This document shows positions 1,310 to 20,310 of a stretch of 20,356 bases of DNA, in pieces. Made by a program: the position numbers and the translations under genes. The DNA is from a virus. Positions within the stretch are counted from its first letter, which is position 1. Each line of letters begins with the position of its first letter. Location of the stretch: IMG/VR virus record IMGVR_UViG_3300032560_001663, positions 1-20,356 of that record, one strand, 5' to 3'. A model generated the notes under the pieces. That model searched no databases and was not told where the DNA came from. It saw only the letters and a list, made by a program, of their open reading frames with translations.

Positions 1310-1319
1310 TCACTTCTCC

Positions 1320-2620: not shown

Positions 2621-2641
2621 AGAGCGTTTCTTTGATCGTGG

Positions 2642-2685: not shown

Positions 2686-2710
2686 AATTCAGGCCTAGCT
2701 TATTAAACTT

Positions 2711-3469: not shown

Positions 3470-4479
3470 CACCTTACCCCTAATCCAATTTCAGTTAATG
3501 CAATTTGCACTCGATCGTCGTTCATATCCTCTAAACTCAGAAGCAAAGAATATGGATCCACATAGTCATCTCTCTCTTGCTTAAATTGAGTTCGTGCAGG
3601 AGCATAGCGCCAAACCTCTAGCTCCAGAGCACCTTCAATTGCCTCAGGCAATATCTGCTCGCCAGCCAACTCTTTTTGCGCACTGCGCCACTCCATTTCA
3701 CCGATAGCTCGGACTACGTTTGGCGGTTCACCCAACATGGTTTGCCCTGCCAGTGCGCTTAATCCTGCTAGAGGTAACTGCAAAAACTTATCAAGCGGAT
3801 TACGAAGCCAAATTCGCTTCCGCACAGGGTTTTGCAAACAAGGCTTGACGGCATCCCATAGCGCGTCACCTTGAAGATTCAGGCGCCAAATTCGCTCATT
3901 CTTGTATGCGCCAACATCTAGCCAACCATGCTCCATCAACTCGCTTTTAATACGAGTCATAGTCATGAGGCTATAGCCCAAGTACATGGCAATCTCTTTT
4001 GGATTTAATGTGTCAGGCAAATTACCAAGCAGCGTATTAATCAAAAATACTTGGGTTGCCACATGCAGCCTTTCTTTGGCATCGACCCTTGTTGCCAATG
4101 CGCGCTCTTGGAACTCAACTCCCAACGGGGGTAGGTAGGCCTGTTTAAATGGAATGATAAAAGGCATGCGCCTCGCAACCATCTCTTTGCGCGCATAAGC
4201 TTGAAGAGTATCTCCAACCCAAATAACAGGCACCCCAGCCTCTTTCTGAATAAGCGCCCTTTGTTTAAGTAACGCTGGCAATGCTTGAGCCCCGTCCTTA
4301 TTGGCCATCAAAAGAACCTCGATCCCAGCCAGCCTAGCTTTGCCCATATCGTAAGTTTGGGCAATGTAGCGTGGCAATTGCACCCCTTTCTCCCAAGCGC
4401 CCTCCTGCAGCAAATCCTCTCCCAGGGCTTGCTGCAAGTAGATGCCTGCTTGGTTAAATAGCTCATGTGCATTCGTCAT
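3469..4479 (-). CDS. AbiEi-like antitoxin / winged-helix transcriptional regulator
   Basis: A 336-residue protein starting at an ATG at 4479; no strong ribosome site is seen. A winged-helix/HTH segment lies near residues 160-195 (LNPKEIAMYLGYSLMTMTRIKSELMEHGWLDV, with MTMTRIKSELMEHG as the recognition-helix region). The N-terminal part (IEVLLMANKDG...VPVIWVGDTLQAYARKEMV) looks like an alpha/beta domain, and PLAGLSALAGQTML resembles a segment seen in regulators paired with nucleotidyltransferase toxins. Type IV AbiEi antitoxins bind inverted repeats in their own promoter. Here a perfect 19-bp palindrome lies 30-47 bases upstream of the start, which supports autoregulation. The stop codon overlaps the toxin start. 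The central HTH and the length (AbiEi is usually nearer 200-280 residues) mean this is a distant or different class, so the antitoxin role rests partly on context. Confidence 0.6.
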   Translation of the reverse strand: MTNAHELFNQAGIYLQQALGEDLLQEGAWEKGVQLPRYIAQTYDMGKARLAGIEVLLMANKDGAQALPALLKQRALIQKEAGVPVIWVGDTLQAYARKEMVARRMPFIIPFKQAYLPPLGVEFQERALATRVDAKERLHVATQVFLINTLLGNLPDTLNPKEIAMYLGYSLMTMTRIKSELMEHGWLDVGAYKNERIWRLNLQGDALWDAVKPCLQNPVRKRIWLRNPLDKFLQLPLAGLSALAGQTMLGEPPNVVRAIGEMEWRSAQKELAGEQILPEAIEGALELEVWRYAPARTQFKQERDDYVDPYSLLLSLEDMNDDRVQIALTEIGLGVR

Positions 4480-4507
4480 GCATCCATTTTAACACTGTTT
4501 TTATCTA

Positions 4508-4546
4508 TTAACATACAGTATGTTAATAAGAAATAAAGTATGTTAA
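4508..4546. promoter_or_regulatory. Palindromic operator of the toxin-antitoxin operon
   Basis: TTAACATACAGTATGTTAA (4508-4526) is a perfect inverted repeat of 9-bp arms about one central base. The right half-site GTATGTTAA recurs as a direct copy at 4538-4546, exactly 20 bp (two helical turns) further. A weaker TTAACA half-site lies at 4489-4494. On the minus strand, TTAACA within the palindrome could also serve as a -35 element, with an AT-rich -10 17 bases downstream. This is the expected form of an autoregulatory site. Binding is inferred. Confidence 0.65.
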
Positions 4547-4571
4547 TTAATTGATTTTATTGATATTAATA

Positions 4572-5774
4572 TTAAATTCCCATATTTCCTAGGTGCTGAG
4601 CGATGCGATCCATAGGCTGCTCAGAGTTGGTCAATGGCGCCCCTAGAGTTGCTGTTCGCGCCCGTATAGGCTGGACACTCTGCGAGGCTGAATGTCTGAT
4701 GCAGGCAATACTGGGGTTAGGCCTTTCGATTGCCTCATAAATAGACTCAATCATGGTTTGCCACTGCTCTGGCCGATTGTTCTGCACAAAGACCTGCATG
4801 TAAAACGGATCTGACATGTATTTATTAAAACAGACTGCCTTATCAATATGATCGATTTCATCTGAACGGGTATTTAAGAACTTGAGCATTTGCAGCTTTG
4901 CTTCCGATACCAATTCGGAAGGTTTTTTCTGTGAATCCGCATGAGCCATCACATTACCGACAAACTTGCTTTCTATTTCATATTTACGGATTACATCTTG
5001 CAAGCTCGTAACCGTGCATTGCAGATCTTCAACCTGCTTTTCTAGATCTCGCTTTTCATTGATGATTCTCTGTACACGCTCACACCCCCTCTTCGATTTG
5101 ATGTTGTCAGAGACATCTTGAATGACGCTGCCGTCAGCATCGGGACTCGAACCCGTAGGTCCGGGGTTCAATACTCGCTGGATTAGATCCTCGCCGGTTT
5201 CGGCGTGAACCTCAATTTGCGGGAGAGCATCAACAGTGATGGTGGCTGGTGCAGGTAATAATTCACTAAGATCATGGGCTGGTGGTGGCAGCTTGCTTTC
5301 TGAAGTAGGCATAAAGGCTGGTACATGCACCTCGCCCTTTACAGGTGTAAATATAGACTCGGGTTCAAGAGCTTCAGACTCCTCTTCCAATACTTCGCCC
5401 TCATCAATATCCTCAGATAACTTGGCAAGAGATACATTAGGGGTCTTACTTAAATCATCTAGTAAGTTCGTTGCTTGGCTCCGACTCTGGCTCTTACGCT
5501 CCGCCTTTTGTAGTTGTTGTATCTGAGCGCTACGCTCCTTATCTAATTGAGCTGTTTCTTGTCTGGCTTTTGCTTGCGCAATCAATTCAAGCGCACGCTC
5601 TTCCCTTGCCTTATTACGCCTTGCGGTGCTCTCGGCCGCGTGCTTTTCATAGGCTTCTTTTTCAAGGCGCTCGCGCTCTTTCTTGGCCTCTCTATCCTGC
5701 ACCCTCTGAATTGAGCCACCCTTAGTTAGGACCTCCGACTTAAAGCCTTCCACTTCATTTGCTACTTGCGTCAT
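4572..5774 (-). CDS. Putative phage scaffold protein (coiled-coil, between portal and capsid)
   Basis: A 400-residue protein starting at an ATG at 5774, inside the portal gene's 3' end (20-base overlap), with GAGGAG about seven bases upstream. Residues 20-105 are a highly charged coiled coil (REAKKERERLEKEAYEKHA and onwards). Residues 115-215 are acidic and proline-rich, probably disordered. Residues 225-270 form a second coiled coil (INEKRDLEKQVEDLQCTVTS). The last 130 residues look folded (SEAKLQMLKFLNTRSDEID; MQVFVQNNRPEQWQTMIESI). Charged, elongated proteins at this position, after portal and before capsid, are usually internal scaffolds that guide head assembly. No family signature was recognised, so another structural or ejected internal protein is possible. 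A short stretch near 5138-5185 mimics a tRNA T-arm but is in frame and coding. An AbiE-like pair separates this gene from the capsid. Confidence 0.6.
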   Translation of the reverse strand: MTQVANEVEGFKSEVLTKGGSIQRVQDREAKKERERLEKEAYEKHAAESTARRNKAREERALELIAQAKARQETAQLDKERSAQIQQLQKAERKSQSRSQATNLLDDLSKTPNVSLAKLSEDIDEGEVLEEESEALEPESIFTPVKGEVHVPAFMPTSESKLPPPAHDLSELLPAPATITVDALPQIEVHAETGEDLIQRVLNPGPTGSSPDADGSVIQDVSDNIKSKRGCERVQRIINEKRDLEKQVEDLQCTVTSLQDVIRKYEIESKFVGNVMAHADSQKKPSELVSEAKLQMLKFLNTRSDEIDHIDKAVCFNKYMSDPFYMQVFVQNNRPEQWQTMIESIYEAIERPNPSIACIRHSASQSVQPIRARTATLGAPLTNSEQPMDRIAQHLGNMGI

Positions 5775-7716
5775 TGCCTGTCTCCTCTTTTAATAAGTTG
5801 CTGCCGTAATTCATTCCAGCATTAGTCTTTTGCTTTCGCTCAGAAAACCAATTCATTCCTAAGTTTGGGTCGTCATCACGCAACCATCCCTCCGCTTGTT
5901 TTTCTACATTCGGTATAAATAGATTTGAATCGATGCGATCGTCATATCGCAAGAGAGTCTCCTGTAGGAGATTACGGATATGTTCGTAGTCCATTCCTCT
6001 TGCTTGTAGGTTTTGCATCTGTATAGATAGATTCGTAATCATGGGAAGAACCTTGAGCCAGCTCTCTTTATCTTCTATGCCGTCTGGCGCGCCGGTAGTA
6101 CCCGCACGTATTCGCAGATCTACCATGTCAAAGATTCGGTCTTTGGTGAGCTCTGGCCAGTCGTAGGTTTTCTCCATGGTCATGATTAGTTCGCCATTGA
6201 TCATGGTGGTCTTGGTACTTGGTGATCCCATGTAGCGCTCTACTTGCTCTTTAGTGAGTTCTTGTAAAAGCACCTGGGCACTGTATTGGGCAATCTCTTG
6301 TAGCCAATCCTCTATCTGATCTTTGAATTCAAATACGCGCCCCGATAGGGCTCTTTGCAAGATGTTGGCTTCGGTTGCCGTCTTGGGTCTGACTACTGTG
6401 GAGCGCGCTGCATCTTGTAGTCCAGTGACTTGCTCCCAGTCATAACGTACTGCGCTGGTGTCATAGACGATGGGATCGATCTTGGGGTGACCTCTGGGAA
6501 TAATGACTTGATTAAGCGGCTTGCCTTCGGTATCGACAATGGTGATCTCACCAAAGCGGGAATCTAAGTGCTTCTTGATAGTCTTTTCATTAATGTCAGC
6601 AGAGGCTACCCACCCTGGTATACAGAGGTCTCGATGTTGATTGAATCGGTCCCTTGCTTCATTGTGCTCATCCTGCAAGCGCTCAGTCAGGTCCACTAGA
6701 CTTGGGCCAATGAATTGACCATCGACTACTTGGTAAGGCAATATGAAGAATGGGTACCAGCGCTCTCCGGCTCTTGGTGGAGAGTAAGGTTCACGTAGCC
6801 ATTCAGTCGCGCCCTCTACCATCGTATAAACACGCTGGGTAGCTCTATCCCAGATCTCTAGTACTGCTATTTGCTGATCATCGGTGACTAGGCCTGAACC
6901 AGCATTCATTTGCATTGAGGCTAGGCGTTTGGCCTTCTTATGAGATGGCTCGCCTTGGCCTGGTTGATAGACCTTGGCGCTGGCTAAGTTCTTCTTGTAG
7001 AGGGCTTCTGCTTGACCGCGTTTCATAGGAATGATTTGGCAGATCCAATCAGCATCGGTGTAATCCCAGAACTCACAGATGGAGGGGTCGATGAGGAGGT
7101 TTTCTGTAAGGACTCTGTCGATTACTAGGCCTTCGGCAGATTGCACCTCTGATTGCTCTTGCAAGGATTTAATGAGCTCCTCTAACTCATTCCTCTTCGC
7201 ATCATGATGATGGGCTTGATCATTATCATGAAGGTCCTTCTCTAGTTCATGAATAGCCAAGAGATTCTCTTGTGCATCGTTGATGCGACCTTGGATATAC
7301 GAATCCTTGCTTGGGTCTCGCTGATACATCACTTTGAGAATGCCGAAGCTACAGGTGAGCGCCGCCCTTACAGTGGACTTAGCTCGATTCTTGAGCTGCG
7401 CATGCTCTAGCGCTCTATTGGTGACTTTCTCCAATGTTTTACAGAAGAGCTTGATGTCCGCGCCCGAGTGAGTGGGTGTTGTTGATATCTCAGGGTTGCG
7501 GGCGTAGACATTAGGAAGCACTGCAGAAATAGTGCCGTGAATGAGATTGGCTCTTAGGCTATAGAAGTCTTTGCCAGTAGGATCGGCATTCCAATTAAAG
7601 CCGGCTACCGTGTTGCGGTTGTGTCTTACGCGCTTATGAAAGGTGGCCCAGTGAGCGCGCGCATGCGTGATGCGGGCGGTCCATTTTTGTTGGAGGGGTT
7701 GAGAGTCTTGAGACAC
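5755..7716 (-). CDS. Phage portal protein
   Basis: A 653-residue protein of portal size. It starts at a GTG at 7716; an in-frame TGA lies six codons upstream, so there is little freedom. The AGAGG next to it is only two bases away, an unusually tight spacing. Portal-like parts are an N-terminal region for monomer packing (DFYSLRANLIHGTISAVLPNVYARNPEI), a clip/stem part, and the segment from LTERLQDEHNEARDRFNQHR through YDTSAVRYDWEQVTGLQDAARS to KTATEANILQRALSGRVFEF, which is characteristic of tailed-phage portals that carry ATEA-type helices. A 12-mer of this protein forms the vertex through which DNA is packed by terminase. In most phages it directly follows the large terminase, but here a two-gene defence-like cassette separates them. 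The call rests on motif pattern, size and context. Confidence 0.82.
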   Translation of the reverse strand: MSQDSQPLQQKWTARITHARAHWATFHKRVRHNRNTVAGFNWNADPTGKDFYSLRANLIHGTISAVLPNVYARNPEISTTPTHSGADIKLFCKTLEKVTNRALEHAQLKNRAKSTVRAALTCSFGILKVMYQRDPSKDSYIQGRINDAQENLLAIHELEKDLHDNDQAHHHDAKRNELEELIKSLQEQSEVQSAEGLVIDRVLTENLLIDPSICEFWDYTDADWICQIIPMKRGQAEALYKKNLASAKVYQPGQGEPSHKKAKRLASMQMNAGSGLVTDDQQIAVLEIWDRATQRVYTMVEGATEWLREPYSPPRAGERWYPFFILPYQVVDGQFIGPSLVDLTERLQDEHNEARDRFNQHRDLCIPGWVASADINEKTIKKHLDSRFGEITIVDTEGKPLNQVIIPRGHPKIDPIVYDTSAVRYDWEQVTGLQDAARSTVVRPKTATEANILQRALSGRVFEFKDQIEDWLQEIAQYSAQVLLQELTKEQVERYMGSPSTKTTMINGELIMTMEKTYDWPELTKDRIFDMVDLRIRAGTTGAPDGIEDKESWLKVLPMITNLSIQMQNLQARGMDYEHIRNLLQETLLRYDDRIDSNLFIPNVEKQAEGWLRDDDPNLGMNWFSERKQKTNAGMNYGSNLLKEETGNDASSK

Positions 7717-7823
7717 ATCCTCTTTATATATTCACAAACGGGACCTCCAGAATTTATTGTGAATTTATGTAGCAAATCTAGTGGGATGAAAAAAAGACTG
7801 CCGATGACTGCTTAGAGATCAAT

Positions 7824-8765
7824 TCAGAGAGCCCCATCCTTCCAACCCCTACCAATATCTTCCATTCCGTCAAAATAGTCTTCCAACATATTGAGTTTTT
7901 GCAATACTCGAAAAATATTACGGGAAGCTGCCTCAGTTTTATGGTCATCATCTATTTGGCACCATGAACATGTTTTTTCGTTGCCTTCCAATGGTTCTTT
8001 ACATGAAATGCAGAAGTTACTAGCCGGCTCTATGCAATTGAAATTAAAAATAAAGGGGTCACCACTTGAATTAATAAAGTACGGGATCGCCGAAGTCTTG
8101 CCTATCTGCAATTCAAAGTAATTACAACCAAACTCAAGTGATTTTTTGAGGGCCATAGCTTTGGTTTCGACAGACGCTCTTGGACCACATATAAACGATC
8201 TTATTGATCCAGCAGGAATATCAACAAGCATCATTCCATCCTCAACTCTAACTTCTTCCGAAGATAGAACCATGCGACGTTCTTTCTCATAATCCCAACA
8301 TATTGCCTTTGTGAAATATGCAGCATTAAAAACCCCTCCTTGCAAAAAATATAAGTAGCGAGGCTTACCAATTACATGTGCTCGATAAAGCATATCCCTC
8401 AAATCGGGATCCGGAGATTCTCTATAGATCACATCGTCAAATTGACTTTCAGGGAAGTCACTCGCTAAAGCAGCCTCATCGATCTCAATAGCAACACCTG
8501 TAAGATTTTTTGCGTAATGAGCCCACATAGGGAGCGCAATAGGGGAAGATGAAAAACATGTAACTGGATGCTGCTTAATATTTCCAATTACTTCAGCATA
8601 AAAAGCAAGTACCCCTGGCTCTTCCTTGAAATCAATGGTCAAAAATTGCTCATAGGGGTCGTTAAAATCCTTAGGATAGGAGCACTTTAGAGTTATTGCA
8701 TCCTTGAACTCAATAACTCTATCCAAGTACTCTGGACCAACATATTTAAATATATTCTTGCTCAT
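7824..8765 (-). CDS. DUF2971 protein with C-terminal zinc ribbon
   Basis: A 313-residue protein starting at an ATG at 8765, 13 bases after the stop of the upstream HEPN-like gene. It has no strong ribosome site, so translation is likely coupled. DUF2971 hallmarks appear in order: FKYVG near the N-terminus, FNDPYE (34-39), CFS (70-72), MWAHYAKNLTGVAIEID (80-96), and WDYEKERRMV (157-166). After the usual end of the domain, residues 252-269 carry C-x2-C-x10-C-x2-C (Cys252, 255, 266, 269), a zinc ribbon not part of the core family, followed by a helical tail. DUF2971 proteins are widespread next to defence and mobile genes; their activity is poorly established. Pairing with an AbiJ/HEPN-like protein inside a phage packaging module suggests that the two act together, possibly as effector and sensor. 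That is an inference. Confidence 0.78.
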   Translation of the reverse strand: MSKNIFKYVGPEYLDRVIEFKDAITLKCSYPKDFNDPYEQFLTIDFKEEPGVLAFYAEVIGNIKQHPVTCFSSSPIALPMWAHYAKNLTGVAIEIDEAALASDFPESQFDDVIYRESPDPDLRDMLYRAHVIGKPRYLYFLQGGVFNAAYFTKAICWDYEKERRMVLSSEEVRVEDGMMLVDIPAGSIRSFICGPRASVETKAMALKKSLEFGCNYFELQIGKTSAIPYFINSSGDPFIFNFNCIEPASNFCISCKEPLEGNEKTCSWCQIDDDHKTEAASRNIFRVLQKLNMLEDYFDGMEDIGRGWKDGAL

Positions 8766-8778
8766 ACTTGAATTTTTT

Positions 8779-9648
8779 TTAAGATTTTAGAGAGTCAATA
8801 TTTTCATGAAGATCATAAATTGCCGACTTTAAGACCTGAAGGGAAATTTTTGCAGTGCTTTCACGTGGGCGAAAGTTTGCCGCCATTTGCTCAAAGGGAT
8901 GAATGTAGTTACGAAAATCTCGAAGAGAATGGCTGAATTTAAAGGTATCGTGTTGAATTAAAGATAGCTCTTTTGACACGTCAATAAAGCTAGCAAGACT
9001 CCAATCATGGAACATCTTTACCTTCCCTGCTGCATCTCTTGGTGCGGAATTTGCAGAATTAAAGCGCCTTGGATATTGAGTGGCCAACCCCAAGAGGATG
9101 CCCTCTAGCGTACTTCCCGCAAGCAAAACTACTGCAAGTGGGGAGGCGGCGGAGAAACACTTTTCAATTTCTTCTATCCTATGCTTAAGAACTGGAACTA
9201 TTACACCATCTAATCCAAGCCCCTCAATGGATATATTGGAAAATTCTCTGGCAAGAAAGCCATTTTCCTGACTTAAAGATACACCCTCATCAATCTCAAC
9301 TTTATCCAAAGTTTTGAATGTAATTTCAGCTCCCGAACGAGTTATTCGCCACTTATCAAATGCCAAATATTGATTAAATTCCCTTAGATGCTGATCCAAT
9401 TCTGGCAGTCGATTAATAAAATTAATCGGGGCAAAAATTTGCTTAATGCACTCATCCAGCCTTGGGGTGCCGTTAATTTTTTTAAGGCATTCATCAGTGA
9501 ACATCCATCGCGATGGGAAACCCTGTCCATAGGATTCGTTAAAACCCAGATTATTGAAAAAGTTAATGAGCGTTGGACCGGATCTATATTCAGTCCGCTC
9601 ATTAATCATTTCTCTTAGCATTTCAAGTGACTTCTGGGATAAATTCAT
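8779..9648 (-). CDS. AbiJ-NTD/HEPN-like putative abortive-infection protein
   Basis: A 289-residue protein when started at the ATG at 9648 (MNLSQKSLEMLREMINERTE), which has AAAGG nine bases upstream. A GTG at 9675 is a weaker option. The N-terminal part (ERTEYRSGPTLINFFNNLGF, YGQGFPSRWMFTDECLKKIN, then CIKQIFAPINFI) is as I remember one of the AbiJ-type N-terminal domains found fused to defence effectors. The C-terminal helical half ends in RDFRNYIHP, where R-x6-H (Arg243, His250) resembles the catalytic motif of HEPN ribonucleases. HEPN proteins commonly cleave RNA during abortive infection. It lies directly after the terminase gene and 13 bases before a DUF2971 gene, apparently as a two-gene unit. 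An AT-rich TATTAT at about 9713 upstream could give it its own promoter. Domain naming is from memory of the family pattern, and activity is untested. Confidence 0.62.
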   Translation of the reverse strand: MNLSQKSLEMLREMINERTEYRSGPTLINFFNNLGFNESYGQGFPSRWMFTDECLKKINGTPRLDECIKQIFAPINFINRLPELDQHLREFNQYLAFDKWRITRSGAEITFKTLDKVEIDEGVSLSQENGFLAREFSNISIEGLGLDGVIVPVLKHRIEEIEKCFSAASPLAVVLLAGSTLEGILLGLATQYPRRFNSANSAPRDAAGKVKMFHDWSLASFIDVSKELSLIQHDTFKFSHSLRDFRNYIHPFEQMAANFRPRESTAKISLQVLKSAIYDLHENIDSLKS

Positions 9649-9721
9649 ATCAATTAACCTTTGGACTATCCGCACCTCAACACTTCGAGGAAGTATGGGA
9701 CTCTTTAAACATAATACATAT

Positions 9722-11029
9722 TCAGTCCAATACCCTCCTTGCTCTCATCACACCATACCTAGTAGCATCCCAAGCGTGATCTTCGGCATCTGTGTCTACG
9801 TCTTCGGGATTGAGTGAGTCTGGCGGTAACCGAGGGATAGTTCTAAGCCAATGCTTGCAATTGTTAAATACCTTTAACTTTCCTTCAGCTAATAGGCGGA
9901 TGATTTCTTGAGCGCCGTTTACCCTACTTCTGGGTGCGTTATAGGCTTCGGTCCATTTAACACCCTTATCCCTGAAGATTTGTCCGATGGATCGCTCTGC
10001 TCCGATCTTAGAAAAGATGGATGGGTCAGCTAGGTTCATGCGGTATTCATAACCAAGGCGTTGGTCATGGAACTCGATCTTTTTGATCTTCTCTGCCACC
10101 ACCGTTGCATCCTCCCTGGTGCCGATGTTTTCTTTCTCTCCATATCCATAGAGTTCTCTCCACAGGTAATAGACTCCATCGTTGGATAAGGCAAACCAAT
10201 AAACGGCATAAGGTCTGGCATAACCCCAATCCATTGAGCGCCATACCTTCCATGTTGGCGGAATGGCAAAGGGCTCTACAACGTGTTTAGAGGGCTGCCA
10301 TACGCCCTCCAAGAAACTTCCCACGTGAATATCCCAATCTCCTTCTAACCAGGCTCTACGCCTGTTTGGATCACTTAGCGACTCTAGGCTCATCAGGTAG
10401 TTTGGGTCGTTTTTGAGTAGGTGCGTGTTCTCATAAATCGTTGAATGAATTCTAACCCTGGGTAGTACGCCTTCTTGCCTAATGATCTGTCCTGCCGGTA
10501 TTGCTCCAATCTGGAATCGCTCCTTTACGGATGCATGCCCAACTCCAAATGGATTACAAGTGGCTCGTACCATTCTTGGCATTCCAGGATGAGATGACCT
10601 GCAGGTGGAATGCATGGCTTCGTAAAAAGAGAGATTGCGCCAGTTGGTTAATTCCTCGAATCCCAGCCATGGGTATTCATGGCCATGGTAATTCCAGTAA
10701 TCGTCCTCATTGGCGCCATAACGAAAGTACAACATCTCACCTGTGGGCCACTTCCATACGTAGTCAGATTCATTGAACTTGGCGCCTGGAAAGATTTGAT
10801 AAAACCAGCGCTTACTCTTGGCTACTACGTCAGCTAGCTGCGGATAAGTAAGGCGAAAGAGTGTTCCGCGCCAATGATCTCCAAAGCCTCTACCTACGTG
10901 TTGGGCATAGCTCATGAGTAAGGTATCGGTCTTACCCCCTCCTCTGGTGCCCTCTAGTAATACCTCATAAACAGGGCATGTCAGAAATAGCGTCTGACTA
11001 CCAGGTAATGGCGCCCAGATGGTTTTCAT
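9722..11029 (-). CDS. terL: Phage terminase large subunit
   Basis: A 435-residue DNA-packaging motor. The N-terminal ATPase shows a Walker A-like EGTRGGGKTDT (26-36, Lys33) and a Walker B with catalytic carboxylate in WLGFEELT (121-128, Glu125/126). ATCNPFGVGH near 156-165 fits the coupling motif. The C-terminal RNase H-like nuclease shows SMDWGYARPYAV with Asp267, NLADPSIF with Asp335, and DAEDHAWDATRYGVM (414-428), the metal-binding acid cluster. Full length for the family, with no break. It would cut concatemeric phage DNA and pump it through the portal. The small-terminase-like gene ends only a few bases upstream (stop at 11033, start at 11029), so they are co-translated. The next gene is not the portal, as usual, but a defence-like pair. 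Confidence 0.93.
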   Translation of the reverse strand: MKTIWAPLPGSQTLFLTCPVYEVLLEGTRGGGKTDTLLMSYAQHVGRGFGDHWRGTLFRLTYPQLADVVAKSKRWFYQIFPGAKFNESDYVWKWPTGEMLYFRYGANEDDYWNYHGHEYPWLGFEELTNWRNLSFYEAMHSTCRSSHPGMPRMVRATCNPFGVGHASVKERFQIGAIPAGQIIRQEGVLPRVRIHSTIYENTHLLKNDPNYLMSLESLSDPNRRRAWLEGDWDIHVGSFLEGVWQPSKHVVEPFAIPPTWKVWRSMDWGYARPYAVYWFALSNDGVYYLWRELYGYGEKENIGTREDATVVAEKIKKIEFHDQRLGYEYRMNLADPSIFSKIGAERSIGQIFRDKGVKWTEAYNAPRSRVNGAQEIIRLLAEGKLKVFNNCKHWLRTIPRLPPDSLNPEDVDTDAEDHAWDATRYGVMRARRVLD

Positions 11030-11032
11030 GGG

Positions 11033-11494
11033 CTAGTGTTTTGGCTGGGCAGCTAGCTCCCACTCATCCATACTCATGGCACTAGGCACCACTAAGACCC
11101 CACTTTGTAGGGGTGCACCATCCTTACCGGTGTGCTCAATTGCAGATAGACGTGGGTGCACATACGGCGCAGCATGCCTGGCGATGGTGGCAGCCATGTT
11201 CAGTAGCTTGATGCGGTTTTCAGTGATCATGGCGCTATGACCATCATCATGATCACCAACCTCATCACCATGGTCATGATGGTCGCGACTGCAATTACCA
11301 GCCTCCTTGTAAAGCGCCATCATCGTGCTCATCATAACTTCCAAGGGGGTAATACCCTGGGCAGCAGCTGCCTCTGCAATCTCACGAGTACGCTTGGTTA
11401 GACTGCCCTCCTTGCGGCCGGCTCCAGGCCTTGCCCCACCCTTGGTTTTGCTTGGTGCCGGTTTCTTTGATTTCTTTTGATTGTTTTCAATCAT
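11033..11494 (-). CDS. Probable terminase small subunit with His/Asp-rich insert
   Basis: A 153-residue protein starting at an ATG at 11494, with a four-base overlap (ATGA) with the preceding gene's stop. A basic N-terminus carries the GGARPGAGRKEGSLTKRTRE motif, common at the start of small terminase-like and related phage DNA-binding proteins. A helix with PLEVMMSTMMALYKEAGN follows, then a region ending in AATIARHAAPYVHPRLSAIEH, which is also typical of this group. Between them residues 70-87 are strikingly rich in H and D (HDHGDEVGDHDDGHS), a likely flexible loop that could bind metal. It directly precedes the large terminase with only a few bases between, so a role in recognising the phage packaging site is likely. 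The family call is by pattern and context. Confidence 0.72.
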   Translation of the reverse strand: MIENNQKKSKKPAPSKTKGGARPGAGRKEGSLTKRTREIAEAAAAQGITPLEVMMSTMMALYKEAGNCSRDHHDHGDEVGDHDDGHSAMITENRIKLLNMAATIARHAAPYVHPRLSAIEHTGKDGAPLQSGVLVVPSAMSMDEWELAAQPKH

Positions 11495-11721
11495 GAGGTC
11501 TTGATCAACCGTAAAAGATGAGGTTGCAGCGCTACCGAGTCTCCAACAGGCTCATCAAACTCGATGATGATTCTTTGGAATAGGTCATGTCGACTCTGGG
11601 CCCCACGATGTTTTACGACTGTGCCTACGCGCCCACTTGGGGTCCTCACTTTTGATCCAATGGGGAAGTCTTCCATGTCAAGACGCTCTATGACGCCTGC
11701 AAAGGTTTGATTAGTTTGCAT
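11491..11721 (-). CDS. Small phage protein, SH3/KOW-like
   Basis: A 76-residue protein started at the ATG at 11721 with AGAGG seven bases upstream. A TTG 11 codons earlier is possible but less likely. The body, FPIGSKVRTPSGRVGTVVKHRG followed by RIIIEFDEP and VALQPHLLRLI, alternates hydrophobic and charged residues as in small SH3-like or KOW barrels. Proteins of this size and pattern occur just upstream of terminase genes in many proteobacterial prophages, but their function is not known to me. It overlaps the DUF1376 stop by 11 bases and the small terminase start by four, so the three genes are one transcription unit with coupled translation. Confidence 0.7.
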   Translation of the reverse strand: MQTNQTFAGVIERLDMEDFPIGSKVRTPSGRVGTVVKHRGAQSRHDLFQRIIIEFDEPVGDSVALQPHLLRLIKTS

Positions 11722-12634
11722 TGGATGCCTCTTGACGTTTACGTAGTTCGGCAAAGATTCGGGTTTTGAAGGATTCGTAACTTTCAGAGCCCTGGGCCTT
11801 CATTGCCAACTCTCTGCCTTTGGCATCTATCCCTTCATTGGTTTTCCACCAGCCGTCTTCATCTGCGCTAGCCGCTTCTGCCTTCTTGCGTGCCCCTTTG
11901 AGTATGGCCAAGACATAGCCTGCATTGATGGGGGTTGGGTTTGAGACTTTCATTCGGGTTTCCTTTGCTGTGGTGATAGCCTCTGCCACCTCAGCCTCCG
12001 TTACCCCGAGATTGACGATGTCTCGTATGCGGTAGTCGTCTACGGCAATAGTTCTACCCTCCTTGCTGATCATGGCCGCAAAACTTTTATATTTTTCGAT
12101 ACGCCCCTGAAAAACTTTTTCTTCTTCGGATGGCGTTGCCGTCTCTTGGGGAATTTTTTCCTTTTCACCCCCATTGTTTTGTTTGCCTGGTGTATGGAGA
12201 TTGGTTACTGGTGACTGGTGTTTGGTGTCTGGTGAGCAATGCGTTCGCATTGCGGTCGCATTGCGAACGCATACATCATTGGATGGGTTTTCGGGTGCCG
12301 ATTCGTCAGCTGGAAATGATTGCCACCTGCCTTCTGCGCTCCGCCTGGCTTTAAGTTGCTTATCTTTAAAACGGGCTATTTCATGGTCGCAGCGCTCTTG
12401 TCTCCAGCCATCATCAGTGAGAGTAAAAAATTCATTAAGGACGGATACAACGGCATTTTTTTCTTCTTTTGATCGTGCATTGATCAATCTTTGCACTAGC
12501 TTGATATCACCTGGCATTGGTTTTTCTGTAGCGTAGTACTTTCTGATGAGGCGGCTATATGTTGCATCCTCTATGAATGTAAGATGCGCGGTCGCTTCTG
12601 CGTAATCTCCAATGTGGTGCTCGTAATAATTCAT
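11711..12634 (-). CDS. DUF1376 phage protein (replication-module type)
   Basis: A 307-residue protein starting at the ATG at 12634 (MNYYEHHIGDYAEATAHL). A frame upstream to 12685 lacks support, and CGGAG lies ten bases before this ATG. Residues 1-100 are a textbook DUF1376 (YdaU-like) domain: HHIGDYAEATAHLTFIEDA, YSRLIRKYYATEKPMP, and DDGWRQERCDHEIARFKDK. This domain is found in phage replication regions and has a winged-helix-like look. A low-complexity linker (about 118-165) is encoded by DNA repeats and a nested palindrome (12236-12272). The C-terminal 130 residues (EGRTIAVDDYRIRDIVNLGV; NPTPINAGYVLAILKGARKK) resemble the helicase-loader-like tails seen in this family. It opens the leftward operon, with a promoter candidate at 12692-12720. 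Confidence 0.85.
   Translation of the reverse strand: MNYYEHHIGDYAEATAHLTFIEDATYSRLIRKYYATEKPMPGDIKLVQRLINARSKEEKNAVVSVLNEFFTLTDDGWRQERCDHEIARFKDKQLKARRSAEGRWQSFPADESAPENPSNDVCVRNATAMRTHCSPDTKHQSPVTNLHTPGKQNNGGEKEKIPQETATPSEEEKVFQGRIEKYKSFAAMISKEGRTIAVDDYRIRDIVNLGVTEAEVAEAITTAKETRMKVSNPTPINAGYVLAILKGARKKAEAASADEDGWWKTNEGIDAKGRELAMKAQGSESYESFKTRIFAELRKRQEASNAN
12236..12272. repeat. Nested palindrome in the DUF1376 linker
   Basis: ATGCGTTCGCA (12239-12249) and TGCGAACGCAT (12262-12272) are exact complements. The left part is also an 8-bp palindrome by itself (GCAATGCG at 12236-12243, CGCATTGC at 12246-12253). The stretch stays in frame, encoding RNATAMRTHC. Beside it (12201-12235), CTGGTG-like units repeat. 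Together they form a repeat-expanded linker region in the protein. Confidence 0.75.
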
Positions 12635-13064: not shown

Positions 13065-13175
13065 ATGGTGGCATTTCGTTTGTATGGCTTGTATCGATCT
13101 TATGGATACACAAAAATGAGTTCTGCAAAGATGGCATTGCAGGTTTATCGTAAAAACTTAAAACGCGCCCGCTAA
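13065..13175 (+). CDS. Small basic phage peptide, 36 residues
   Basis: A short frame, ATG at 13065 to TAA at 13175, with GGAG ten bases upstream. The product starts MVAFRLYGLYRSYGYTKMSS and ends in a strongly basic stretch (VYRKNLKRAR). It is rich in Tyr, Arg and Lys, with net positive charge and no membrane segment. Its stop codon overlaps the AAGGAG ribosome site of the next gene, so the two are probably translated in series. It is the first gene after the rightward promoter candidate. A DNA- or RNA-binding role is possible, but no family is recognised. The ribosome site, tight packing and clean frame argue that it is real. Confidence 0.55.
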   Translation: MVAFRLYGLYRSYGYTKMSSAKMALQVYRKNLKRAR

Positions 13176-13185
13176 GGAGATGGTG

Positions 13186-13395
13186 ATGAGTCAATCAAGC
13201 CCCCAAATCCCACCTATTACTTTGATGAGAATTCCTCAAATATTAAAAGTGATGCCGGTATCAAAATCTAAGTTTTGGTTGATGGTTCAGAAAGGCGAGT
13301 TTCCAAAGCCAATCAAGATTGGAAGGTCTTCGTTTTGGACGATTGAGCAGGTGCAGGCGTATTTAAGGGAAAGGATGGGGCAATCCACCAATTGA
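13186..13395 (+). CDS. AlpA-family phage transcriptional regulator / excisionase-like
   Basis: A 69-residue protein. The start is taken as the ATG at 13186, six bases after AAGGAG; an ATG at 13180 directly abuts that site and is less likely. The core reads TLMRIPQILKVMPVSKSKFW, then LMVQKGEFPKPIKIGRSSFW and TIEQVQAYLRERM. This is the MerR-like winged helix-turn-helix of AlpA (PF05930 type), with the typical FPKPIKIG wing and W-x-x-x-x-V-x-x-[YW] end. AlpA proteins activate prophage excision or integrase genes and can act as recombination directionality factors. It lies downstream of the small peptide gene and just before a hairpin that controls the next gene. Its target could be the TTGAC boxes upstream. 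No integrase is in the window. Confidence 0.87.
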   Translation: MSQSSPQIPPITLMRIPQILKVMPVSKSKFWLMVQKGEFPKPIKIGRSSFWTIEQVQAYLRERMGQSTN

Positions 13396-13398
13396 GTA

Positions 13399-13455
13399 AT
13401 GGTTATCTCCTGAGCTTATGCTATTCATCCTACGGAAAACTCAGGAGATGACTAT
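13399..13455 (+). promoter_or_regulatory. Hairpin that hides the ribosome site of the 106-aa gene
   Basis: ATCTCCTGAG (13405-13414) is the exact reverse complement of CTCAGGAGAT (13440-13449). Pairing extends outwards, with G-U pairs, to 13399/13455, for about 16 pairs around a 25-base loop. The right arm contains the AGGAG ribosome site (13443-13447) and reaches into the ATG at 13454. The stem begins four bases after the AlpA stop (13393-13395), so a ribosome finishing AlpA would open it. This implies translational coupling or a switch. Confidence 0.7.
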
Positions 13456-13774
13456 GCATGCAGTGAATTTATCCAAGCCAGTTAGTGTTGAGGTCTTTGA
13501 CCACAACCGCCCCCTGTATGAGAGCGCTTGGATTCAAATTGGGGACTATGAAGATCTGGCGGATGCCGTCGATGCATGCAGGAGAGTAATTGATCGGGTC
13601 TTATGCAAACCGCGATACTCATCCCTTACTGGACATGCTTTGATGCAGGAGTATTTAAATTATGGCCCGGTCCCATGCATTCGCGGGGTTGATAATCTGG
13701 ATGCCTTTGATCCTTATGATTATCTCGAAATCAAAGCCAAGTTAGCTGCCAATAGCGCTATGAAAATGCTCTAA
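13454..13774 (+). CDS. Hypothetical phage protein coupled to AlpA
   Basis: A 106-residue protein starting at the ATG at 13454 (MHAVNLSKPVSVEVFDHNRP), six bases after AGGAG. In-frame ATGs at 13418 and 13448 have no usable ribosome site; the first lies in the hairpin loop. The sequence is soluble, acidic and mixed alpha/beta: an N-terminal strand pattern, a helix (YEDLADAVDACRRVIDRVL), then VDNLDAFDPYDYLEIKAKLA. It is not a family I recognise. Its start is enclosed in a long hairpin directly after the AlpA stop. The stop codon overlaps that of the converging nucleotidase gene by four bases (13771-13774). Its place in the regulatory operon suggests an early or lysogenic role. Confidence 0.7.
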   Translation: MHAVNLSKPVSVEVFDHNRPLYESAWIQIGDYEDLADAVDACRRVIDRVLCKPRYSSLTGHALMQEYLNYGPVPCIRGVDNLDAFDPYDYLEIKAKLAANSAMKML

Positions 13775-14286: not shown

Positions 14287-17154
14287 TTAGCCCATACCCT
14301 CAATAAAGGTATCAATAAATCGGGCAATCGCATCCCCAACCCTTACTAAAGTTGATTTACGCTCCAAAATCTTGGGCTTCTGCTCCAGGACTTCAATTAA
14401 CTCCTCCGACCTTGGGGCTTGATTTGTAAATTCATAGCCTTCTAGAAGGGCTTGAAGTTTCACCCCGCTAATCCCCTCAGACTGACAAAGCGCATCAAAG
14501 GCCGCTTTCTTCTTCTTAGCCCAAAACACCTCAAATTCTTCTGCAACCCCATCAGGAGACAAGCCGCTGAGGCTCTCTTCAATAAATTGCTCAATAAGAG
14601 TCCTCTTAGAGCGCAATTGAATCTCGCCAGACAGATAGTCATCAATCTGCTTCTTGATCCCCTCACCCTTTTTACCCTTGCCACCATTCTTTAACCACTC
14701 GGTTAACAACAGGATGATGTACGCAACATTAATTTGATCCCGATGAATGAGAACAATTTCAAAGTCCACGTCATTCAGAATGGAATCTTTCTCTTTGGCA
14801 TTCTCATGCTTGACGCGCTCGTAGATATCGAGATACTTAGACTTGTAATCTTCAAAACCTTGCTCAGTAAGTGCAAGATCCCCTTCTTTATAGTCAGTAA
14901 ACGAAGTGATTACGTTCTTTAACTTAAGGAGCTCTCTAAAGCGAGTTACAAATAGCAGCTGCTCATTCTCATCTTGCAAATCATCCACCGATGAAACGGT
15001 TGGAGTTAAGGCAAGGAGTGCCTCAACCGCTAGGTTATATTTCTCAACGTAATTCTCATAAGGCTCTAGCAGCACTGTTTCTTTGGCATCCTTATTGGAG
15101 AACAAGGCAATCGCCTCATCTGTCTTTTCCTTCAGATTCCTAAAGCAAATGATATTGCCCTGTGATTTCTTATCATTTAGGATGCGGTTGGTTCTAGAGA
15201 ATGCCTGAATGAGTCCGTGGTACTTTAGGTTCTTATCAACATAAAGCGTATTGAGTCTTGGGCTGTCAAAACCAGTGAGGAACATATTGACAACTAATAG
15301 GATGTCTACCTGCCCCTGACGTACTCGCTTGGCAATATCTTTGTAGTAGTTGTAGTAGTCCTGGCTATCTTTAGTCGAGAATTTAGTACCAAACATCTCG
15401 TTATAGTCATTGATGTATTGATCTAGCTTGTCTCGGCTATAGACGATCTTTTCAGGCGTTACGCCATCATCTTCAGGAATTACACCACCGGTACCATCAG
15501 CCTCAGGATTAGCCTCATTCTGTTGATAGCTAAATATGGTGGCAATCTTTAAGTCTGAGCCCGTTTCTGCGATTTTCTGCTTGAATAAGTCGTAGTAACG
15601 AATCAATGAATCCACACTGTCAACGCAGAACATCGCAGTGAAGTCTGGATGCTTGGTCTTTTGACGGTGATGATCAATGATGTAATCCGTGATTTTATTA
15701 AGGCGGTCGTCAGCCTCCATCAACTCCTTGGTATCAATTGACTCGACATCGATATCTAAATGGCTGCCAGATTCTTTTTTCTTATAACGCCCGACATACT
15801 CAACAGAAAAGCGTAGGACATTCTCATCCCGAATCGCATCGACAATGAGATATTTATGCAGGCAAGTGCCAAATAGATCGGCGGTTGTTTGCTTGCGTCC
15901 ACCATGCGTGGATGCGTTCTTCTCCAGAATCGGCGTTCCAGTAAAGCCAAACATTTGGCAGTTACTGAAATACTGCTTAATGTTTTTGTGGTTCTCACCA
16001 AACTGGCTACGATGGCACTCATCAAAGATGAAGATCACCCTCTTGTCTTTTAGGCCATCCATCTTGATGGCATGCCTATCTCGGGTGATCGCGTTATTCA
16101 GCTTCTGAATCGTCGTTAGAACTATCTTAGAAGTTGGATCATTCAGTTTCTTGACCAACTCCGAGGTATTGGGTGCGCTATCGACTGAACCCTCTTCGAA
16201 GTGATTGAACTCTCTCTCCGTTTGGTAGTCCAAGTCTTTTCTATCAACAACAAAGACCACCTTATCGACTTCGGGCAATTCGGCGACGATTTGACTGGTC
16301 TTAAACGAGGTTAAAGTCTTGCCAGAACCTGTTGTATGCCAGATATAAGCATTGGACTTACTGGTTTTTACCTTTTCAATGAGAGCCTCAACCGCATAGT
16401 ACTGATAAGGACGCATTACTAAAAGCAACTTATCCACTGTCAGAACCATATAGCGAGAAATCATCTTCGCTATATGGCAAGGCTTTAAGAATTCAGCGCT
16501 AAAGTCATGCAGATCTGAGATGCGCTTATTTTCTTTGGTGGACCAGAAGAAGGTCTGCTTGAAAGTGAACTCTTTAATGCTTTTATTATTAGAGAAATAC
16601 TTGGTATTGACTCCATTGCTAATGACAAAGAGCTGGACATACTGAAACAAGCCGTAGCCCGCATCATAGGATTCATGCTTATATCGGATGATCTGGTCAT
16701 AAGCGACCTTTAGATCCATTCCGCGGCGCTTTAGTTCAATTTGAACTAAAGGTAGGCCATTAATCAGAATCGTGACGTCATAGCGATTCTTGCGCTTACC
16801 CTCTGTTGAGATTTGGTTAGTGACCTGAAATTCGTTTTGGCACCAGTCCATATGGTTTAAGAAGGTAATCCAGATAACGTCGCCGTTATCACGCTTTAGT
16901 GCAAATTTATCTCGAAGGATTTCAGCGCGGTCAAATACGTTGCCGGTATTGAGCTTATTGAGAATTTGCTCATATTCCTTGTCGCTAAAGCGAAGATTGG
17001 GAATATGGTGGGTGTTTTCGTTATGGACTTCAAGCTGGCGCCTTAAGTTAGCCAGCATGTCAGACTCATCCAGAATCTCTACGCGGGAGTACTCCATTGA
17101 CTGGAGTTGCTTGATGAGCGCTTCTTCTAGCGCGGCTTCAGATTGGATGGCCAT
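14287..17154 (-). CDS. hsdR: Type I restriction enzyme, motor/nuclease subunit HsdR
   Basis: A full-length 955-residue subunit. The N-terminal PD-(D/E)xK nuclease shows RYDVTILINGLPLVQIELK with Asp126, Glu140 and Lys142. Helicase motifs follow: Walker A HTTGSGKT (273-280), DECH (378-381), GFTGTP near 405, and the motif VI-like LIQAFSRTNRIL near 650. The C-terminal helical part would bind the methylase core. HsdR pulls unmodified DNA through the complex and cuts it at a distance. Its ATG lies one base after the hsdS stop (TAA T ATG) with no visible ribosome site, so it depends on coupled translation. No frameshift is seen, and all motifs are intact. Confidence 0.95.
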   Translation of the reverse strand: MAIQSEAALEEALIKQLQSMEYSRVEILDESDMLANLRRQLEVHNENTHHIPNLRFSDKEYEQILNKLNTGNVFDRAEILRDKFALKRDNGDVIWITFLNHMDWCQNEFQVTNQISTEGKRKNRYDVTILINGLPLVQIELKRRGMDLKVAYDQIIRYKHESYDAGYGLFQYVQLFVISNGVNTKYFSNNKSIKEFTFKQTFFWSTKENKRISDLHDFSAEFLKPCHIAKMISRYMVLTVDKLLLVMRPYQYYAVEALIEKVKTSKSNAYIWHTTGSGKTLTSFKTSQIVAELPEVDKVVFVVDRKDLDYQTEREFNHFEEGSVDSAPNTSELVKKLNDPTSKIVLTTIQKLNNAITRDRHAIKMDGLKDKRVIFIFDECHRSQFGENHKNIKQYFSNCQMFGFTGTPILEKNASTHGGRKQTTADLFGTCLHKYLIVDAIRDENVLRFSVEYVGRYKKKESGSHLDIDVESIDTKELMEADDRLNKITDYIIDHHRQKTKHPDFTAMFCVDSVDSLIRYYDLFKQKIAETGSDLKIATIFSYQQNEANPEADGTGGVIPEDDGVTPEKIVYSRDKLDQYINDYNEMFGTKFSTKDSQDYYNYYKDIAKRVRQGQVDILLVVNMFLTGFDSPRLNTLYVDKNLKYHGLIQAFSRTNRILNDKKSQGNIICFRNLKEKTDEAIALFSNKDAKETVLLEPYENYVEKYNLAVEALLALTPTVSSVDDLQDENEQLLFVTRFRELLKLKNVITSFTDYKEGDLALTEQGFEDYKSKYLDIYERVKHENAKEKDSILNDVDFEIVLIHRDQINVAYIILLLTEWLKNGGKGKKGEGIKKQIDDYLSGEIQLRSKRTLIEQFIEESLSGLSPDGVAEEFEVFWAKKKKAAFDALCQSEGISGVKLQALLEGYEFTNQAPRSEELIEVLEQKPKILERKSTLVRVGDAIARFIDTFIEGMG

Positions 17155-17155
17155 A

Positions 17156-18316
17156 TTAGATAAACATCTGCTGTAGGAGGCCTTGTTTATATTTTTTGGT
17201 GAGTTCTAGTTGAGATTTAATAATTTCAATTTTTTTATCAATCCCAACCGAAAACTCTAATATTTTTATTTGCTCATCATGATGGGGTAACGGTATTGTG
17301 ATTTTTGAATACTGTGATATCCAATAACGCTTATGCTCATCACCCCCTTGAAAATCAATTCGACACATTGCTTCATAGATATATCTAAGACAGTTATCTG
17401 AATTGATATTTTTTAGCATCTTCATTGCGGATGACTTAGCCTTAAATGGAAAATCAACAAATTTAAATGCCGTGGTGAAGTCATCGAATATGATGACTGG
17501 TAAATCTGTATAAATACCGTTAATTTCGTCCGTGTAGCCCAATAAAAATGTCTTACCTGCTGTTAGAACGGGAGTATCAAAGCCATCAGAATATTCAGTG
17601 GATGAAACAAGATAGCGGCCCGGCTGTTCATAACCCAGCACTTCCTCTAACAGCACATATTCCCAGCCTGGAAAATCTTTTCCGGCCTTATCTTTAAAAC
17701 GTATTTCCTGATTAAAGATTTTCTGCATAACCCCTTTTTTATATTGAATAAGGAGTTCATGCTTTTTAACTAAGAGGGAGATTTTCTTATCTATCGCAGA
17801 GAGGAATGAGGAAATTTTTTGCTGCTCCCCCAATGAACACAGTGGAACTTTTATTTTTCCAATTTCTTTTAACGCCAAGAATAGTTGCGCACCGCCCGAT
17901 GTAAGCTGAATGAATTGTTTAGCAGCATTTCTTCTCTGAATCTGAACAAGATATTCAGGAATCACTCTCTGTCTATTTGGCTTTACTAGGGCCACATTTT
18001 TCAAGCTAAATTGATAATCAACCGTGTTAATTGCACATGTTGATGTTCCTGCGCCAATGTTAACTATCAACATATCGCCTTTTTCAGGGTTACATCTTTT
18101 GTAGATTTTTTGATGTTCCTCTTCCGGGAGAAAATAGCAATTTTCGTAATCGATTCCAGAGTCTTTTATATGAATGGCAGTCAAGTAAGGAATCCCCGTT
18201 TTTGTTGGTTTCGGAGTATCGTGCGTACCATCGGTTATCTTCTCCGCAACATCCCTCATCGTCACAAAAGCCCACTCATCCTTAAAGACCTTAAACCTTA
18301 ACTTCGGCTTATCCAT
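17156..18316 (-). CDS. hsdS: Type I restriction-modification specificity subunit HsdS
   Basis: A protein of about 386 residues. The ATG at 18316 shares one base with the hsdM stop (TGATG); a GTG one codon upstream is also possible. Two target-recognition domains are separated by coiled-coil spacers: TRD1 at about 10-150 (DVAEKITDGTHDTPKPTKTG; KYPYLTAI-like IPYLTAIHIKD), a central spacer at about 155-210 (EIGKIKVPLCSLGEQQKISS; FLSAIDKKISLLVKKHELL), TRD2 at about 215-340, and a C-terminal spacer (SKITIPLPHHDEQIKILEFS; IDKKIEIIKSQLELTKKYK). The two TRDs would read the halves of a bipartite site. Its DNA is more A/T-rich than hsdM or hsdR, as usual for exchanged TRDs. The recognition sequence cannot be predicted here. 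Confidence 0.93.
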   Translation of the reverse strand: MDKPKLRFKVFKDEWAFVTMRDVAEKITDGTHDTPKPTKTGIPYLTAIHIKDSGIDYENCYFLPEEEHQKIYKRCNPEKGDMLIVNIGAGTSTCAINTVDYQFSLKNVALVKPNRQRVIPEYLVQIQRRNAAKQFIQLTSGGAQLFLALKEIGKIKVPLCSLGEQQKISSFLSAIDKKISLLVKKHELLIQYKKGVMQKIFNQEIRFKDKAGKDFPGWEYVLLEEVLGYEQPGRYLVSSTEYSDGFDTPVLTAGKTFLLGYTDEINGIYTDLPVIIFDDFTTAFKFVDFPFKAKSSAMKMLKNINSDNCLRYIYEAMCRIDFQGGDEHKRYWISQYSKITIPLPHHDEQIKILEFSVGIDKKIEIIKSQLELTKKYKQGLLQQMFI

Positions 18317-19899
18317 CACTTGCCACCATCCCTGAGTGGTGGTTCAATTCCCAGCTCTTTGCAGAAGGCCACTATTTCCTTATCTACGCTCGCCGAATCC
18401 CTATCTAAGTTAATCAGTTGGGCCGATAGTGCTGCAAGATCAATTTCCTCTTCTGTCTCAAAGCTATCAACGTACCTTGGGATGTTTAGGTTCCAGTCGT
18501 TTTCCTTGATTTCCTCGATGGTAGCTATAGCGCTGTATCTATCTTCTGCTTTGCGTGCCTTGTATGTCTGAACAATCTTGGTAATGTGCTCGGGGCGCAT
18601 CACATTGGTTGTTTTGACTTTCTCAAAATTCTTACTTGCATCTATGAACAAGATATTGTCATTCTTCTTACGGCACTTACGCATTACCAGAATACAAGTT
18701 GGAATGCCCGTACCGAAGAAGATATTTGATGGAAGTCCAATAACCGCATCTAAGCAGTTCATTTTTTCAATAAGGTATTGTCGAATATGCCCTTCTGCAC
18801 CGCCGCGGAATAGGACGCCATGAGGCAGAACAACTGCCATGGTGCCTTCTTCTGATAAGTGGTAAACCATGTGCTGCACGAAGGCTAGATCAGCCTTGCT
18901 GCTTGGCGCCAGCTTGCCGTATGAGCTAAAGCGATCATCGCTCATAAACATCGGATTGGCAGACCATTGCGTTGAAAATGGTGGATTTGCCACAATCGCA
19001 TCGAACTTCATTTCTAGATGCTGAGGTTTCTCTAGCGTGTCTTCATTCTTGATGTCGAACTTACTAAAGTGCACGTCATGCAAAATCATATTCATGCGGG
19101 CTAAGTTGTAAGTCGTTGGATTTCTTTCTTGGCCGTAGATGTGGCCAACAAACTCTGCTTGTCGTTTTACGCGGAGCAGCAATGATCCTGATCCGCATGT
19201 TGGGTCGTATACGTTTCTCAGCTTTGGGTTATTGAGGGTTACTAATTCCGCTAGCAGTTGTGAAACTGGTTGCGGCGTGTAGAACTCCCCCGCTTTCTTA
19301 CCTGCACCACTGGCAAACTCACCAATGAGGTACTCATAGGCGTCGCCCAGTACATCAGCCGTAGCATCACGTAACTGGAAGTTGATCTTGTTTAGGTGAA
19401 CCAACACTTTAGCAATGAGTTCGTTTTTCTCGTCCTCTGACTTGCCTAGCTTAGCTGAGGTGAGGTCTATATCGTCAAATAGGTGCTCAAACTCTTCAGC
19501 ACTCTCGGTTCCCAAGGTGCTTTGCTCGATATTTTTGAGGACCTTGGTTAAGTCACCCAGAATGAAGGTGTTGGATCCTAGCTCACCGTTTCCCTTTTTA
19601 GCTAGATGATCAAACATTTCGCTAGGGGCTAGGTAATAGCCAAGCTCTTCTTTGCAGGCCTCTTCTATGGCCTCTAGGTATTTTTTACCTTCAGCAGACT
19701 TTTCATCAAGAGTTTCAAATGTCAGCTCTTCGCCCTCTAATTGATCATTGGCAAAGTTGGCAATTTTTTCTGATAGATACTTGTAGAAGATAAATCCAAG
19801 GATGTAATCCCGAAAGTCGTCTGCAGACATCTTGCCTCGCAATGTATTGGCAATATTCCATAGCTGCTGCTGTAACTGACGACGCTGCTCTTCTGACAT
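18316..19899 (-). CDS. hsdM: Type I restriction-modification methyltransferase subunit HsdM
   Basis: A 527-residue N6-adenine methyltransferase. The N-terminal HsdM domain starts LWNIANTLRGKMSADDFRDY. The catalytic domain shows GEFYTPQPVSQLL (204-216), the SAM-binding DPTCGSGSLLL (232-242), ERNPTTYNLARMNM, and the catalytic NPPF at 305-308. The ATG at 19899 is preceded by AAGGGA five to six bases upstream. It opens the hsdM-hsdS-hsdR operon, so methylation is made before the nuclease. With two copies and one HsdS it methylates host DNA at the site. A promoter candidate lies at 19940-19967. The sequence is complete with all motifs. Confidence 0.96.
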   Translation of the reverse strand: MSEEQRRQLQQQLWNIANTLRGKMSADDFRDYILGFIFYKYLSEKIANFANDQLEGEELTFETLDEKSAEGKKYLEAIEEACKEELGYYLAPSEMFDHLAKKGNGELGSNTFILGDLTKVLKNIEQSTLGTESAEEFEHLFDDIDLTSAKLGKSEDEKNELIAKVLVHLNKINFQLRDATADVLGDAYEYLIGEFASGAGKKAGEFYTPQPVSQLLAELVTLNNPKLRNVYDPTCGSGSLLLRVKRQAEFVGHIYGQERNPTTYNLARMNMILHDVHFSKFDIKNEDTLEKPQHLEMKFDAIVANPPFSTQWSANPMFMSDDRFSSYGKLAPSSKADLAFVQHMVYHLSEEGTMAVVLPHGVLFRGGAEGHIRQYLIEKMNCLDAVIGLPSNIFFGTGIPTCILVMRKCRKKNDNILFIDASKNFEKVKTTNVMRPEHITKIVQTYKARKAEDRYSAIATIEEIKENDWNLNIPRYVDSFETEEEIDLAALSAQLINLDRDSASVDKEIVAFCKELGIEPPLRDGGK

Positions 19900-20219: not shown

Positions 20220-20310
20220 TGGCGGAAGAGGCGGGATTCGAACCCGCGGTAGGCTATTAACCTACGTACGCTTTCCAGGCGTATGACTTAAACCGCTCAT
20301 CCACCCTTCC
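20220..20310 (-). tRNA. tRNA-Ser (GGA anticodon)
   Basis: A 91-base tRNA with the CCA end encoded (20222-20220) and a G discriminator. The acceptor stem is GGAAGGG (20310-20304) with CTCTTCC (20230-20224), including one G-U pair. The T-arm GCGGGTTCGAATCCCGC is perfect. The anticodon loop reads CTGGAAA, giving anticodon GGA for the UCC and UCU codons. A long variable arm (GTAGGTTAATAGCCTAC) is typical of class II serine tRNAs. The gene faces left, so its 3' end borders the restriction-phage region, as expected if that region entered by integration at a tRNA 3' end. Confidence 0.95.

Follow-up and report, generated by a model that had tools for sequence, protein, structure and literature searches.

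Does the hairpin that follows a gene for an excisionase-like regulator make translation of the next gene depend on that of the regulator? The question is raised by a 20,356-base virus record (the window, here meaning the whole stretch of DNA analyzed), a prophage-like element of Polynucleobacter, the genus in which its relatives are found.

The orf36–alpA–g106 locus and its element

Three genes lie in order on the plus strand: orf36 (13065–13175), alpA (13186–13395), and g106 (13454–13774). To their left, the minus strand carries phage-type genes; to the right of g106 lies a type I restriction system. A tRNA-Ser(GGA) gene on the minus strand (20220–20310) is the probable integration site, and g106 adjoins tRNA-Ser in elements without cargo. 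Genes for an integrase, a lysis-type enzyme, capsid, portal, terminase, and replication-type (DUF1376) proteins are apparent in window positions 206–12634 and in three related elements (L153, L154, and L155), in none of which was a tail gene recognized by eye; the related elements may be capsid-forming satellites that have no tail. Accessory genes occupy fixed slots, namely the portal–terminase gap and the gap between g106 and tRNA-Ser (7824–9675 and 14287–19899 in the window; also L130, L131, and L132), and the cargo of these slots includes type I restriction systems, the PDC-S31 candidate defense protein, and SIR2-like and OLD-like ORFs (the last two recognized by eye), such that the element looks like a defense-gene hotspot. 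Where cargo has been inserted, the upstream gene's 3′ tail, the hairpin, and g106 recur as a second copy adjoining tRNA-Ser (14707–15109 in L131, 9959–10349 in L130, and about 6600–7020 in L132), as if an older end of the element had been duplicated, or left in place, on cargo entry.

The regulator encoded by alpA is a 69-aa AlpA/excisionase-like protein that matches phrog_66 (excisionase and transcriptional regulator) at an E value of 1.8e-9 and scores 20.8 bits against PF05930, for which the cut-off is 21. AlpA regulators (PF05930) are known from PICIs and prophages, and the protein described here resembles them in being small, AlpA-like, and of HTH type, and in belonging to an integrated phage-type element. 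Its start was placed at the ATG at 13186 on the basis of Shine-Dalgarno (SD) spacing and the alignment of relatives (the ORF list begins the gene at 13180), its SD is CTAAGGAGAT (13172–13181), and its stop codon occupies 13393–13395. Directly upstream, the stop of the 36-aa gene orf36 abuts the alpA SD; in many relatives, orf36 has a 42-aa form that overlaps the alpA start. Its product is a basic protein of 36 to 42 aa (MVAFRLYGLYRSYGYTKMSSAKMALQVYRKNLKRAR), 74 to 97% identical across most AlpA loci and strongly conserved in nearly all related ones, and still recognizable in L051 and L052, which are distant; Pfam and PHROG searches returned no match for it.

The gene behind the hairpin, g106, starts 58 nt after the alpA stop and encodes a protein of 106 aa, whose family (35 members aligned) is uncharacterized and seen here only in Polynucleobacter. 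Its AlphaFold2 model (pLDDT, 84.8) shows a small alpha/beta fold with no confident Foldseek match among solved or viral structures, and nothing confident regarding function came from Pfam, PHROGs, PADLOC, PDB sequences, or Foldseek; matches to SPOR (best E value, 0.037) and ERH (0.23 and 0.26) were too weak and were set aside. Within the genus, g106 occurs in 19 of 186 genomes and AlpA in 31 of 186, and among 398 genomes sampled from the family, none carried g106 beyond those already found in the genus.

A predicted hairpin over the g106 start

The preliminary description, made from the letters of the sequence, had noted a perfect 10-bp core, extendable to about 16 pairs, that begins right after the AlpA stop, contains AGGAG, and reaches the start codon of g106. 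Folding bears out each of these points. The hairpin comprises 16 pairs, including two G-U pairs, between 13399–13414 and 13440–13455 on the plus strand, with the perfect core ATCTCCTGAG/CTCAGGAGAT at 13405–13414 and 13440–13449. The first base of its 5′ (anti-SD) arm, 13399, is the fourth past the last base of the alpA stop (13395), and its 3′ arm carries the SD AGGAG (13443–13447) and ends with the first two bases, AT, of the g106 start codon (13454–13456), which are paired. The hairpin is thus predicted to sequester both the SD and the start codon of g106. Between the arms, a 25-nt loop (13415–13439) contains the conserved TCCTACGGAAAA (13428–13439) and an in-frame ATG at 13418. This ATG, to which the same description had drawn attention, is present but not conserved, and it was rejected as the true g106 start since relatives with TAAGCTA loops are without it. 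The ATG at 13448 is missing in many relatives, the sole constant ATG is that at 13454, and the loop ATG appears incidental.

Over 58 nt, the hairpin has a minimum free energy (MFE) of −23.0 kcal/mol, against a mean of −9.15 (standard deviation, 2.6) for 200 dinucleotide shuffles, none of which was as stable (z = −5.3); when folded in 101 nt of context, its z value is −2.3. Perfect 10-bp inverted repeats with loops of at most 40 nt occur in about ten places in the window, at 1.8 per 10 kb across 15 related loci, and at 0.8 per resampled window. The 10-bp core alone is unremarkable, and the excess lies in the length of the stem, its position on the SD and start, and its conservation. A rough comparison is provided by 102 SD-bearing ATG starts, picked mechanically from the ORFs of the window and related loci, among which g106-family starts rank 1, 2, 3, 5, 7, and 9 in the energy needed to open the region from SD to AUG; the g106 of the window, at 15.6 kcal/mol, is the second hardest of the 102 (mean, 6.9; standard deviation, 3.0).

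A search of Rfam 15 gave no match above the gathering score for the hairpin. Pairing of the 5′ arm with alpA's own SD was considered and rejected, as relatives in which orf36 overlaps the alpA start do not possess that site. An integron attC-like site, suggested by GTTRRRY-like motifs near some hairpins, was likewise discarded, with no consistent paired core sites seen by eye.

Conservation and natural variants

Scans for related AlpA proteins recovered 45 viral loci and 24 genome loci; g106 starts 58 nt past the alpA stop in most of the linked loci and 56 to 76 nt past it in the others. We aligned 34 distinct sequences, 31 of which are alpA-linked (the window included) and three of which are orphans; in a few (L042, L055, L075, and L076), the gene behind the hairpin is shortened or shifted. 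With the stem of the window imposed on this alignment, 89.2% of cells pair, versus 35 to 51% when the stem is slid. Two-sided changes occupy 18 cells, compared with 6.4 after shuffling, and none of 500 shuffles attains the covariation score; pairs with two-sided changes number four, a count that 71 of the 500 shuffles reach, and all of these values derive from a stem taken from one aligned sequence and from related sequences that represent few independent events. The changes include U-A to C-G beside the SD in six rows (with U-G in two more) and G-C to A-U in three rows (L035, L041, and, separately, the orphan L097). Covariation in homologues, proposed earlier as a check on the stem, is therefore present but modest, with few independent events on a conserved sequence. 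Certain relatives count against the proposal: L041 has lost most of the stem and requires only 1.7 kcal/mol to open, and stems are weak (5 to 6 kcal/mol) in L007, L008, L035, and L057. Overall, the hairpin, the SD sequestration, the conservation with two-sided changes, and the constant spacing are shown by sequence and computation, and sequestration of the g106 SD, as a prediction from sequence, is well supported.

Copies of g106 without an intact alpA fall into two classes. In L087, L091, and L097, alpA is reduced to its 3′ tail, followed by the hairpin and then g106 (L087 and L097 adjoin tRNA-Ser); in L088, L092, and L098, g106 is preceded by the tail of another gene, and its SD lies in an unrelated hairpin. 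All six require 14.4 to 21.9 kcal/mol to open the start, and because both classes are costly to open, SD hiding is a recurrent property of g106. That the hairpin persists in three g106 remnants without alpA is a point against coupling to AlpA. Matches to a covariance model built on the hairpin were also obtained at L036, L065, and L029, in which g106 was not found, so the hairpin may have another role, and at L043, whose contig ends too soon to show whether g106 follows.

At many other g106-less alpA loci, a compact hairpin faces a convergent ORF; this hairpin looks like an ordinary 3′-end structure. In L016, L021, L027, L031, L062, and L070, for example, alpA is followed by a compact hairpin (e.g., CCCCTGAGGATTCTCAGGGG), on the far side of which a convergent ORF of about 530 to 590 aa ends some 30 nt past the alpA stop. 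For these g106-less loci, distances to neighboring genes were used, automated fold parsing being unreliable for branched folds.

Probable coupling to AlpA translation and its alternatives

Given that the predicted hairpin hides its ribosome-binding site and start, g106 is probably translated mainly when AlpA is. We infer that alpA and g106 share a transcript, on which the segment just past the alpA stop would pair with the SD and start codon of g106, and the hairpin so formed would repress de novo initiation there. Ribosomes finishing alpA would cover the lower half of the stem, allowing the other seven to nine pairs to open, and g106 would initiate mainly, but not solely, on alpA messages under translation, its output following synthesis of the excisionase-like AlpA. 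Judged from the sequence, repression of g106 by the hairpin is very probable; given such repression, dependence of g106 on alpA translation is fairly likely; and the proposal as a whole, repression by the hairpin plus relief by alpA translation, falls slightly on the likely side of even. Repression in vivo and its relief by alpA termination are both presumed.

A terminating ribosome is taken to cover roughly 9 to 12 nt past the stop codon. The 5′ arm starts after the alpA stop, so elongating ribosomes never cross it, which is a point against coupling; a terminating ribosome should occlude just the lower seven to nine pairs. The modeled probability of an unpaired SD in the window is 0 when no ribosome is present, 0.005 with 9 nt covered, and 0.37 with 12 nt covered, and the mean opening cost over 29 relatives declines from 11.1 kcal/mol when uncovered to 8.5, 7.4, 7.1, 5.8, and 4.8 kcal/mol with 9, 10, 11, 12, and 15 nt covered, respectively. 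In such a model, AlpA termination could bring g106 near the local norm (6.9 kcal/mol), with melting that would be partial and would hinge on the exact footprint (9 versus 12 nt). The preliminary description had ribosomes ending AlpA melt the stem and g106 made only when AlpA is translated. For the first claim, modeling retains the occlusion of the lower pairs but makes the melting partial. For the second, sequestration is supported, with pairing kept in 34 sequences, but strict dependence is too strong in view of this partial occlusion and of the finding that, in a synthetic operon in E. coli, the downstream gene was expressed less when a structure lay right after the stop codon, a type of structure for which an insulating role was proposed (PMC7518266). 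Partial coupling of g106 to alpA is likely; it is favored because the SD and start trapped in the structure are those of g106 itself and because the preceding pair, orf36 and alpA, is likewise closely spaced or overlapping.

An insulating role could also apply here: the hairpin would be a "ribosome termination structure" (RTS) that blocks re-initiation after alpA, leaving g106 expression low and independent of alpA translation. An RTS is defined as a structure directly after the stop codon, of at most −6 kcal/mol, with the next gene at least 25 nt away (PMC7518266). By MFE and spacing, rather than by sliding-window delta-LFE, the hairpin lies within these energy and distance limits, starting three bases past the stop, far below −6 kcal/mol, with the next gene 58 nt off, and related or compact hairpins also follow alpA where g106 was not found. 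However, an RTS is defined by folding energy only and need not include the SD and AUG of the next gene, yet the alpA–g106 stem does so in nearly all g106-linked loci, with its sequence and pairing conserved; moreover, RTSs are reported to be depleted between genes of one operon (PMC7518266). We consider insulation unlikely.

That the hairpin is a 3′-end structure of the alpA message, either a terminator or an RNA-stability hairpin overlying the g106 start by accident, is less probable again, despite the many g106-less alpA loci at which a compact hairpin faces the convergent ORF. No intrinsic (Rho-independent) terminator, sought as a short-loop G+C-rich stem followed by a T run, is found at the hairpin on either strand, the loop being 25 nt long with no T run, and the position of the stem follows the g106 SD and start.

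Very improbable is a DNA-level or hitch-hiking origin, in which a recombination junction or conserved boundary travels with g106 and RNA folding plays no part. The alpA tail, the hairpin, and g106 do occur together in remnants, and the loop TCCTACGGAAAA is conserved about as well as the stem, but the pairs show two-sided changes, and L035, L037, L055, and L067 retain the stem with quite different loops. Exact matches to TCCTACGGAAAA are confined to the neighborhood of g106, so that it is not a dispersed site or repeat. The motif, which can fold into a 3-bp mini-stem, is constant even in relatives with variable adjacent loop bases.

GGA in a loop plus GGA in an SD is the layout of CsrA targets, and both are present here, but the idea that g106 translation is set by a protein, such as CsrA, bound to the loop ACGGA and the SD is scarcely credible: CsrA was found in 0 of 61 sampled Polynucleobacter genomes, while the control search did recover it from E. 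coli, B. subtilis, and T. maritima, and several relatives without the loop motif still keep the stem.

Control by an SD-sequestering intercistronic hairpin is a known mode, of which alpA–g106 is a new case. In E. coli rpmI–rplT (L35–L20), translational coupling operates at a spacing of +52 nt with an inhibitory structure over the downstream start (PMC12548453). Like rpmI–rplT, alpA–g106 consists of co-oriented genes about 50 to 60 nt apart (+58 for alpA–g106), with an inhibitory structure on the downstream start and relief by upstream translation proposed; unlike the sequence-based case of alpA–g106, coupling in rpmI–rplT was shown by experiment, the genes and structure differ, and only the alpA–g106 stem lies wholly past the upstream stop. 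Structured downstream starts are also opened by upstream translation in phage f1 genes VII–IX and in MS2 coat–lysis (PMC12548453), but there the genes overlap and the upstream ribosome traverses or adjoins the structure, whereas the alpA stop precedes the stem. The same review distinguishes two models of coupling, RNA unfolding and ribosome scanning.

Whether a post-stop hairpin couples or insulates is a question left open by both PMC12548453 and PMC7518266, and one that sequence alone cannot decide; the natural variants described here (pair swaps, differing loops, a second hairpin design, and alpA-less copies) form a ready series for addressing it. As a more doubtful extension, g106 might be an excision-linked gene beside the integration site, translated mainly with AlpA, through which the element would alter the host, or a partner phage, solely as it switches to leaving the chromosome. 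If the coupling holds, a single hairpin would tie the accessory protein g106 to the excisionase-like switch of defense-gene-carrying Polynucleobacter elements.
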